A stretch of DNA of 32,163 nucleotides from Planctomyces sp. GTDB lineage: Bacteria; Planctomycetota; Planctomycetia; Planctomycetales; Planctomycetaceae. The position numbers and the translations under genes are program-made. Positions within the stretch are counted from its first letter, which is position 1; each line of letters starts with the position of its first letter. The stretch is taken from the NCBI GenBank assembly GCA_027483145.1, contig JAIXVG010000064.1, forward strand, positions 1 to 32,163, written 5' to 3'. A model generated the notes under the pieces. The model was not told the DNA's origin. It worked only from the letters and a program-made list of their open reading frames with translations, and searched no databases. Of this stretch, positions 23,749 to 32,163 are shown piece after piece.

Positions 23749-23900
23749 CTTGCCGCACCATTCTCATCCCAATCAACGACAAGCTCAATTCGCGATCAGC
23801 AACCTTGGTCATCGGCCAAGCACCAAACGCACCACCAAGACCCACTACCGCATTCCGTGCATCCAGCCGCACCCCAAAAGGAATGGACACCCCGGTTATC
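23749..23900 (+). repeat. direct repeat R1, left of the PSD1-DUF1501 cassette
   Basis: About 150 bp homologous to 29431-29581 in the same orientation. The best 112 bases (from CTTGCCGCACC to the GCATTCCGTGC end) show about 13 differences by eye. On the minus strand both copies keep the frame NAVVGLxGA...WPMTK...R.L.LSLI for some 40 codons, suggesting remains of a coding family. R1 is followed by CATGCTTG palindromes. Confidence 0.75.
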
Positions 23901-29373: not shown

Positions 29374-29430
29374 TAGCTCCATCAATCACGCCGCGTCAAT
29401 CTGATACTTCTTCAGTTTGGTAGAGTGTTA

Positions 29431-29581
29431 CTTGCCCCACCTTCTCATCCGAATCAACGACAATCTCAATGCGCGATTAGCACCCTTGGTCATCGGCCAA
29501 GTATCAAGCGCACCATCGAGACCCACTACCGCATTCCATGCGGCAAACCGCACCGTTCAACGCTCCAAACACCCTGAAATC
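29431..29581 (+). repeat. direct repeat R2, right of the PSD1-DUF1501 cassette
   Basis: This is the counterpart of 23749-23900 in the same orientation, about 5.7 kb away. The conserved frame on the minus strand (NAVVGLDGALDTWPMTK) ends early at a TAA because of an indel relative to R1, so R2 is the more decayed copy. Confidence 0.72.
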
Positions 29582-29926: not shown

Positions 29927-31378
29927 GTGAGAGTCACAATGATGCATATCTCCGACCTTCATCGTGATCCGACTCAGGGGATTCGGAATGGGCCATTACT
30001 CCGCTCACTCGTGAATGACCGTAATCGCTACGCCACTGGCACACCGCCACTTTCACCGCCTTCCCTGATCATCGTCAGCGGAGATATTGTTTACGGTGTT
30101 CCGGCCACGCACTCTACCCCGAACGACACACTTGCAGCCCAATACCAAGAGGCAGAATCATTTCTTGTAGACTTGGTGAACACCTTCCTTGATGGGGACC
30201 GGCAGCGGTTAGTTCTTGTCCCCGGCAACCATGACGTGAGTTATCCCGAAACGCTGACAGCCCTTACTTCACTCACCGCATCCTCTCCCGCCGCTTCATC
30301 CCTCTCAGATGCAATTGCAGACTTGTTTTCGCCGCATTCCTCGCATCGCTGGTCTTGGAAAGACCTGCAGCTATACCGCCTGACCGACAAAGATCGCTAC
30401 AATCGACGCATTGAACATTTCGCCTCCTTTTATTCCCGCTTCTATAAAGGGGCTCGGAGCTACAGCTTAGCCCCGGAAGAACAGGTTGATATTTTCGCTT
30501 ATCCAGCCTATGGCATCGTCATCGCCGCTTTCAATAGCTGCTACAACAATGACCCGCTTCACAGGGCCGGGTGTATTCATCCCAATGCGATTGCAGTGGC
30601 AGCACGACAAGTCGAATCTCTTCAGTATCAGGGTCACATCCCTGTTGCCGTGTGGCATCACAACACCCTTGGCGGGCCACATTCGGACGATTACATGGAT
30701 GCGGACACGCTGCAAGTCCTAATCGACTGTGGCTTCAGCATTGGACTACACGGGCACCAACACAAGCCAACATTCGTGGAAGAGCGTTTTCGCTTCGCCA
30801 CTGGTCGAAAGATCACGGTCCTGAGCGCCGGAACGCTCTGTGGAGGCCACCGCTCGCTGCCACATGGACACGACCGATCATATAACCTGCTCGAACTCGA
30901 TACCGAAGCTTACTCGGCTACCGTGCATCAGCGGCGTATGTCCAACGACTCATTTGACTTGCCCGTGTGGACAGCCGGGTGGTACTCAGATTTGAACGCC
31001 AGCACAATCCAGTTCGATATTCAGACGCCACTTGTGCCTCAGCCATCTCAAAATGCCCGGCTATCGGAAGCTGAATCATTGCTAGCGAAGAACGATCATG
31101 CCGGTGCGAGGAGCGTCCTTTTGAGACTCGTCAGCACGGACGGCATTGCGCGTCGAATGCTTGCGGAGTGCTATACAGTCCTTCCGTATGACGACGACCT
31201 AATAAGCAGCTTGTTTCCTCCGCAGTCCGTAAGCGAAGCCATCCTTCTTGCGGACGCCCTCTGGGAGTTGGGAGACAAGAAACGCCTTGGTGAACTGCTC
31301 GGCCTAAGCGTCGTCGCTGACAGCATTGATTCTGCGGCAATCGAACTACGGCAGAAATACGAAGCGAGGGTGAAATGA
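29927..31378 (+). CDS. calcineurin-like metallophosphoesterase with C-terminal helical domain
   Basis: 483 aa from the GTG at 29927. The complete metal-binding set of calcineurin-like phosphoesterases is visible: DLH (D10, H12), GDIV (D53), GNHD (100-103), WHHN (H244/H245) and GHQH (276-279). The catalytic domain spans about 1-340. The rest (about 365-483) is helical with short TPR-like repeats (ARLSEAESLLAKNDHAGARS, AILLADALWELGDKKRLGEL), suitable for protein contacts. Substrates of such enzymes include nucleotides, cyclic nucleotides, nucleic acids and phosphoproteins; none can be chosen here. The stop overlaps the start of the next gene (ATGA), so the two are translationally coupled. With an HSP90-like partner, a defence or stress function is plausible but inferred. 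Confidence 0.9.
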   Translation: MRVTMMHISDLHRDPTQGIRNGPLLRSLVNDRNRYATGTPPLSPPSLIIVSGDIVYGVPATHSTPNDTLAAQYQEAESFLVDLVNTFLDGDRQRLVLVPGNHDVSYPETLTALTSLTASSPAASSLSDAIADLFSPHSSHRWSWKDLQLYRLTDKDRYNRRIEHFASFYSRFYKGARSYSLAPEEQVDIFAYPAYGIVIAAFNSCYNNDPLHRAGCIHPNAIAVAARQVESLQYQGHIPVAVWHHNTLGGPHSDDYMDADTLQVLIDCGFSIGLHGHQHKPTFVEERFRFATGRKITVLSAGTLCGGHRSLPHGHDRSYNLLELDTEAYSATVHQRRMSNDSFDLPVWTAGWYSDLNASTIQFDIQTPLVPQPSQNARLSEAESLLAKNDHAGARSVLLRLVSTDGIARRMLAECYTVLPYDDDLISSLFPPQSVSEAILLADALWELGDKKRLGELLGLSVVADSIDSAAIELRQKYEARVK

Positions 31379-32163
31379 GCACGTCTGAGGATCGCATCAC
31401 ATTTGAGGTCGAAACGAGTCGAGTCCTAGAGATTCTTTCGAAGGAGATTTACGACTCGCCTTTGGCGATGCTTCGTGAGAACGTCCAGAACGCCTATGAC
31501 GCAATTCTGATGCGGGCTTCGCTAGAAAACTCATCCTTGGCTGACGGACAAATTACAGTAGATATTTCCGGCCAGCAGATCACTATCGAGGACAACGGTA
31601 TTGGCATGACTGAAGAAGTTCTTCGGAAGAACTTCTGGAAGGCAGGGTCGAGCGGCAAACGTGGCGAATTGGCAATGCGTGCAGGGGTGATCGGTACCTT
31701 CGGCATTGGTGCGATGGCGAACTTCGGCGTCTGTACATCGCTTAGGGTGGAAACCAGAGCGGTTGCAAGTGACGAAACCCTAATCAGCACAGCACAGCGA
31801 GACGCGCTTTCGATTGCAAGAGACTGCATCGCCTTGAGCCGCCAAAAGGATGGCCGAACGCCGGGGACTCGGCTTGCCGTCACCCTCGACCCTCAGAACA
31901 TCATCACAGCGGAGAAGGCCCAGTCGTATTTGGAACCGTATGTTCGATACGTTCTCGTTCCAATTCACATTAATGGCACACTGATTAGCCAACAATCACT
32001 CCACGAGCGATACCTTCGCCGCACGAAAGACTTTCAGTCGCTCGGCACGATGAACGTCACGCAGGGAGATTACCGCTGCACCGTTGAGGCGTTTTGTGAC
32101 ACGAATGCCGTGGTTGCTTGCCGAATCACCAATCTGAACCTTGCAAGCGAAGCTGTGATGGGA
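31375..32163 (+). CDS. HSP90/GHKL-like ATPase, C-terminus outside window
   Basis: 263 residues are visible from an ATG that overlaps the preceding stop by 4 bp; the frame is open to the right edge. The N-terminal ATPase has the Bergerat-fold motifs: N-box RENVQNAYDAI (34-44), G1 EDNGIGM (72-78) and G2 GTFGIGAMANF (107-117). This is the HSP90/MutL-like branch and not a histidine kinase, as no H-box precedes it. The next part (about 180-263) looks like the beta-alpha middle domain. Canonical HtpG begins differently and is usually a single gene, so this is a divergent member of the kind found in accessory and defence loci. Its partner is the upstream metallophosphoesterase. Confidence 0.88.
   Translation, partial: MSTSEDRITFEVETSRVLEILSKEIYDSPLAMLRENVQNAYDAILMRASLENSSLADGQITVDISGQQITIEDNGIGMTEEVLRKNFWKAGSSGKRGELAMRAGVIGTFGIGAMANFGVCTSLRVETRAVASDETLISTAQRDALSIARDCIALSRQKDGRTPGTRLAVTLDPQNIITAEKAQSYLEPYVRYVLVPIHINGTLISQQSLHERYLRRTKDFQSLGTMNVTQGDYRCTVEAFCDTNAVVACRITNLNLASEAVMG

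Follow-up and report, generated by a model that had tools for sequence, protein, structure and literature searches.

The end of a planctomycete contig raises the question that we address here: are a metallophosphoesterase (MPE) gene and the gene for an HSP90-like ATPase directly behind it two parts of one undescribed system, and what might such a system do? The window, by which we mean the whole 32,163-nt stretch analysed, is contig C276 (JAIXVG010000064.1, positions 1-32,163) of the 625-contig genome G000 (Planctomyces sp., assembly GCA_027483145.1), and the two-gene operon at its 3' end has a size of ~3.8 kb. We conclude that the pair is probably a previously unnamed two-part immune system, for which we infer both the defence role and the mechanism.

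Structure of the two genes and their surroundings

The MPE gene (29927..31378, forward strand) is an open reading frame with a GTG start that encodes 483 aa, with a calcineurin-like N-terminal catalytic domain (PF00149, E=5.9e-8) and a C-terminal TPR-like helical domain. Its motifs, all on the forward strand and invariant in 12 homologues, are HISDLH (motif I, 29945..29962, metal ligands D10 and H12), SGD (motif II, 30077..30085, metal ligand D53), GNHD (motif III, 30224..30235, N101 and H102), WHH (motif IV, 30653..30661) and GHQH (motif V, 30752..30763). The sequence-only reading had credited the protein with a complete set of metal ligands, and the alignment of these homologues confirms it: D10, H12, D53, N101, H102, H244/H245, H277 and H279 are all present and unchanged. 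That reading had also proposed an extra TPR-like domain, and structure prediction points the same way. The AF2 model of the MPE (pLDDT 81, pTM 0.72) has an all-helical segment, modelled at good confidence, at residues ~373-482 (31043..31375, forward strand). The closest folds to these helices in Foldseek are the TPR domains of HOP, CHIP and Sgt2, and Pfam TPR_4 gives a sub-threshold score only.

The ATPase gene has an ATG start, and its 5' part of 263 codons (31375..32163, forward strand) runs off the contig end. A same-genome contig search placed the remainder on contig C38 (L200, positions 2-1561), where the segment corresponds to residues 263-779 of the closest-homologue probe at 80% identity. 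The 3' end of the window and the 5' end of C38 have 7 nt in common (GATGGGA), in frame; this overlap is weak alone, and it is the in-frame continuity with the homologue that makes the join very likely correct. The joined ATPase of 780 aa is stop-free and 81% identical over 779 aa to that of a Mu-like phage contig (L091). Judged from this joined frame, the truncation is due to the assembly only and the gene is intact.

The HSP90-type motifs claimed for the ATPase are likewise present, all on the forward strand: an N box, LRENVQNAYDA (31471..31503), in which the catalytic Glu and the Mg-binding Asn are assigned by HSP90 alignment, a G1 box, DNGIGM (31591..31608), and a nearly family-specific G2 box, GVIGTFGIGAMANFG (31684..31728), which contains GVIGTFGIGA. 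The fragment in the window scores with PF13589 (HATPase_c_3, E=3e-10), and the ATPase scores, under the cut-off, with the HSP90 family PRK14083 (1.5e-26). As read from their motifs, both MPE and ATPase have intact active sites.

Homology to HSP90 is supported by profile comparison for residues 4-198 only. Full-length HSP90 models (HtpG PRK05218, PRK14083) were not reached (57-97 bits against cut-offs of 371/455, from the N domain only), PF00183 was not found in the ATPase, and hhalign gave no significant match between the ATPase middle region and HSP90, so that middle-domain homology finds no support at the sequence level. Past the N-terminal domain, a wider likeness to HSP90 is suggested by two features. 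One is a conserved motif, PTAGREALSRES(I/V), that appears to resemble the SREMLQ catalytic-arginine loop of HSP90; the other is the predicted fold. The structure model is of low confidence (pLDDT 71, pTM 0.47), and its top Foldseek matches are all HSP90, TRAP1, GRP94 or HtpG over 600-700 columns (E=6e-17 over 650 columns), with Hsp90-PP5 structures among the matches. A canonical HtpG is encoded separately, on contig C23 of genome G000, in keeping with the earlier view that this ATPase is not HtpG-like in context.

The next gene after the ATPase stop, on C38, is a convergent and unrelated sigma-54 (NtrC-type) regulator. The operon therefore consists of two genes, and the suggestion that further genes may follow in it did not hold. 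A third conserved gene was sought across the loci described below and none was found, only MPE and ATPase being common to all; RNA folds around the operon showed nothing unusual.

On its other side, the pair had been said to lie next to decayed repeats at an apparent island boundary. The repeats are real, with 113-nt copies at 23761-23873 and 29442-29554 of the window that are 87% alike, but alone they do not mark a boundary, being dispersed through the genome. The intergenic stretch with the repeat matches the C276 copy and eight further genome sites, most of these at 75-84% identity, and this wider occurrence led us to reject the 113-nt repeats as an island edge. No coding function is evident for this dispersed family. 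Separately, a 45-bp imperfect direct repeat has its left copy at 29374..29418 (unstranded), which matches C38 1883-1927 at 38/45 positions. The right copy is the 3' end of the sigma-54 regulator gene, which is conserved in 39/40 relatives, and the two copies flank the operon. From its sequence and position, we treat this repeat as a candidate attachment-site duplication, apparently an old one, that encloses an insertion of ~4.7 kb. An empty site was not shown: the DUF1501 gene does not lie beside the regulator in the eight regions compared from relatives, these relatives being too distant.

Pairing, distribution and neighbours

The MPE and ATPase genes are associated, and the association is mobile. 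Their stop and start overlap by 4 nt (ATGA, 31375..31378, forward strand), as the sequence-only reading had noticed, and this arrangement is conserved in most loci. In 14/14 loci with readable flanks (the window, G013, pPUV-9, Rhizobium 007, L011-L016, L091-L093 and G735), the MPE is directly upstream of the ATPase on the same strand; the count leaves out L094/L095, which start at a contig edge, and G364, which has an ATPase remnant only, without an MPE. The 4-nt overlap is exact at 11 of the 14, and possibly in P. aeruginosa too, from an alternative ATG. Together these loci cover planctomycetes, Alpha- and Gammaproteobacteria, Bacteroidota, conjugative plasmids and IMG/VR contigs, and at least three bacterial phyla. 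Co-occurrence in this order among unrelated bacteria and mobile elements, which an operon of this kind had been expected to show, is thus seen at every readable locus.

The reverse test, from MPE to ATPase, gave 4/5 plasmid records (the exception is a distant fusion protein), 2/2 genomes in the window's phylum and 3/3 matches in IMG/VR. The two proteins have also diverged together: their pairwise identities correlate (r=0.90, permutation p=1e-4), and their trees have congruent well-supported clades.

The family is discrete, because a scan of a genome collection with the ATPase gave six more full-length proteins, all with E no higher than 1e-128, and nothing further until E=1e-16, where matches begin that are only N-terminal and GHKL/HtpG-like. 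By tblastn on plasmids, the pair is found in P. aeruginosa pPUV-9, two near-identical plasmids and Rhizobium sp. 007; an IMG/VR search gave five contigs, and genome sampling added G013 and G735. Copies are rare in the sampled groups (2/294, 2/385, 2/393 and 1/369 genomes, ~0.3-0.7%, with the genome at the centre of each sample counted in). A phage-collection search gave no match to the MPE and partial GHKL/HtpG-like matches only to the ATPase. A hypothetical protein in a Salmonella Infantis entry that is filed under phages (AFYI01000005.1, 51110-52174) matches ATPase residues 1-347 at 25%, possibly a further GHKL family.

That the locus might be a housekeeping one shared by planctomycetes had been raised as the alternative to a system, and the MPE occurs in only 2/294 genomes of the phylum. 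The pair is rare and does not follow taxonomy, and therefore is not housekeeping. To a housekeeping locus or chance neighbours we give next to no probability, since both are refuted by the 14/14 pairing in unrelated taxa, the 4-nt overlap, the correlated divergence and this rarity.

In the trees, the window copy groups with the Mu-like phage copy (ATPase 81%, MPE 70% identical) and that of G013 with Alphaproteobacteria; the two planctomycete copies thus fall apart, and the pair therefore moves horizontally. The phage contig (IMGVR_UViG_3300048574_000496) is Mu-like, with transposase and Gam, and carries the pair as cargo flanked by its late activator and terminase genes; a neighbouring protein weakly resembles NACHT (EruA). 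Of the other IMG/VR contigs, L092 carries a Ccr-like recombinase and L093 a portal and a head protease.

Some copies are broken. The G013 MPE is broken by an insertion sequence and split over two contig ends that carry the same insertion-sequence end, whereas its ATPase is intact. These breaks, together with the G364 remnant, the tight overlap, the obligate pairing and the conjugative plasmids, would suit a toxin-antitoxin or plasmid-addiction module with a toxic MPE and the HSP90-like ATPase as chaperone-type antitoxin. Known type II pairs, however, are far smaller, and a broken MPE beside an intact ATPase suits an effector under ATPase control equally well and does not discriminate; we regard such a module as unlikely. 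Nearby, the G013 contigs (L009 = G013:C50, L010 = G013:C11) also have genes for a polymorphic toxin of the deaminase type and for a 1895-aa protein, and a gene that, by eye, may be a SUKH-type immunity gene.

Known defence genes were not found among the ten genes scanned at the window's own locus. They do occur near the pair elsewhere, as would be expected if the suspected defence role were correct. Lamassu genes are upstream of the pair in pPUV-9 (Pseudomonas) and downstream in Oceanibaculum, where the locus also has HsdM (type I RM), a ZacB-like PLD protein and PDC-S31. Septu PtuA/PtuB genes lie ~2 kb downstream in one Rhizobium, Abi_2 is near the pair in a Paludibacteraceae genome, and PIN and toxin-deaminase genes are near other loci; TA genes also number among the neighbours. 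LmuB was found in only 6/240 Alphaproteobacteria, so that Lamassu at two of 14 loci far exceeds what a rough estimate (order of 1e-5) allows for chance; this estimate is post hoc, uses LmuB only and assumes ~3 Mb per genome. Sporadic, mobile and near other defence genes, the pair has the profile of a defence class, with the neighbour enrichment gauged by this rough LmuB estimate only. In the Paludibacteraceae locus (L015:6719-12298), a tight pair of genes for an MBL-fold hydrolase and an 8xMP membrane protein closely precedes the MPE and ATPase genes in the same orientation, and the four may make up an enlarged version of the system.

Anti-CBASS and anti-Thoeris enzymes degrade nucleotide immune signals, and the pair could be a counter-defence module that protects phages and plasmids, its MPE degrading host nucleotide immune signals with the HSP90-like protein as dedicated chaperone. 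Its presence on a Mu-like phage, other IMG/VR contigs and conjugative plasmids is consistent with such a role, and MPE domains include cyclic-nucleotide phosphodiesterases, one related MPE scoring weakly to a cAMP phosphodiesterase model. Several copies, however, lie on chromosomal contigs with Lamassu, RM, Septu or Abi genes next to them, and an obligate ~770-aa ATPase is unneeded by a signal-degrading enzyme. We judge counter-defence rather unlikely.

Comparison with known systems

The top Foldseek match of the MPE model is B. subtilis YydB (E=7.4e-17, near full length), followed by Mre11 and Vps29. The MPE shares with the YydB-type ABC three-component system about the same length (481-485 aa), a YydB-like fold and a gene beside an ATPase gene. 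An IMG/VR contig (L097:1800-5324) holds a three-component relative, in which genes for a YydB-like MPE, a small protein and a Rad50-like ATPase follow one another; its MPE has a profile match to the window MPE at probability 97. In these systems, the partner is a Rad50-like ATPase with a small middle protein, whereas here it is an HSP90-type GHKL ATPase with no conserved third gene; the SMC/Rad50-like ATPase and the middle component are both absent from the operon. SbcCD/Mre11-Rad50 likewise pairs an MPE of related fold with an ATPase, but that partner is an SMC-type ABC ATPase, in place of which the pair has a GHKL protein.

Among NCBIfam anti-phage phosphoesterases, DS9_1 (NF053862; E=1e-12, 47.6 bits) and DS8 (NF053861; E=1e-5, 23.3 bits) have a related catalytic domain, but the window MPE is far below their cut-offs of 420 and 790 bits, respectively, and its match is confined to the catalytic portion of the profile. 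Related MPE domains also occur in larger proteins. One of 1185 aa on an IMG/VR contig (L096:7992-11549) has a DS8-like MPE (109 bits, below the DS8 cut-off) fused to a formylglycine-generating-enzyme-like C-terminus (EgtB/GldK models), and one of 1443 aa on Nostoc plasmid p057_H (L008:5400-9731) lies between NACHT and HEAT-repeat genes.

The ATPase shares the N-terminal ATPase domain of HtpG/HSP90/TRAP1 by sequence (N, G1 and G2 boxes), and its low-confidence model resembles their overall fold by Foldseek. It differs from HtpG in that the likeness covers the N domain only, at ~27% identity, and in its extra C-terminal region and mobile two-gene context. An accessory of stress response or proteostasis, with a divergent HSP90 co-transferred with a phosphatase client or co-chaperone much as in eukaryotic PP5-HSP90 and no role in conflict, would account for the HSP90-like predicted fold and for an MPE tail closest to the TPR domains of HOP, CHIP and Sgt2. 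It fits poorly with a pair that is rare, patchy, mobile and near defence genes, in genomes such as G000 that already have HtpG, and it strikes us as quite improbable. GHKL ATPases are used in phage defence by MZA MzaB, TmtA and the BbrUII/HgiDII restriction enzymes, which give weak N-domain scores; these proteins have other C-terminal regions and partners, and all score far below cut-off. Full-length PADLOC-DB 2.0 models (PDC-S60, TmtA, GHKL REases) gave only partial matches of 10-25 bits.

No library family reaches its cut-off for either protein, and literature searches (gene pair, DS-8/DS-9, Lamassu with MPE) found no description of the pair. It fits none of the known systems compared: for HtpG, DS9/DS8, PADLOC systems, SbcCD and the YydB type, a defining feature is lacking in each case. 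NTPase-dependent conflict systems are known to use calcineurin-superfamily domains among their variable effectors (eLife 52696; eLife 70394), and calcineurin-type domains are described as the most common such effector of GTPase-centred ones (eLife 52696). The systems of Kaur et al. 2020 (eLife 52696) likewise have an MPE as variable effector beside an NTPase regulator, but their regulators are MoxR-vWA, STAND or DO-GTPases, and HSP90 is not mentioned. By analogy, we read the pair as acting like an effector-plus-NTPase conflict system with a different regulator.

Proposed function

We consider it fairly probable that the pair is a mobile two-gene conflict module, most likely anti-phage, in which the HSP90-type ATPase regulates the MPE effector. 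The MPE would be a two-metal calcineurin-superfamily enzyme that cleaves a nucleotide, a nucleotide signal or a nucleic acid. The ATPase may stand in as regulator for the STAND, ABC, MoxR-vWA or GTPase partners of other systems, binding the MPE in an ATP-driven clamp cycle and holding it inactive or poised. The TPR phosphatase PP5 docks on HSP90, and because of this analogy we propose that the MPE docks on the ATPase probably through its C-terminal TPR-like domain. Infection, with a phage protein as client or through a perturbed ATP or clamp state, would release or activate the MPE, which could then stop growth or phage replication as an abortive defence. In this scheme we infer the physical contact, the effector activity, the trigger and the defence phenotype.

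More tentatively, and with considerable doubt, we suggest that a bacterial HSP90 paralogue might have been recruited as the infection-sensing switch of an immune system and might act directly on a calcineurin-superfamily effector with a TPR tail. It would then be the prokaryotic counterpart of the eukaryotic PP5-HSP90 pair and of the control of NLR immune receptors by HSP90. As a two-gene operon that occurs naturally on plasmids of Pseudomonas and Rhizobium, the system is directly testable. If the proposal is true, the HSP90-type ATPase would join STAND, ABC/SMC, MoxR-vWA and GTPase proteins among the few NTPase switches of bacterial immune effectors, and one may ask whether immunity first came under HSP90 control in bacteria.
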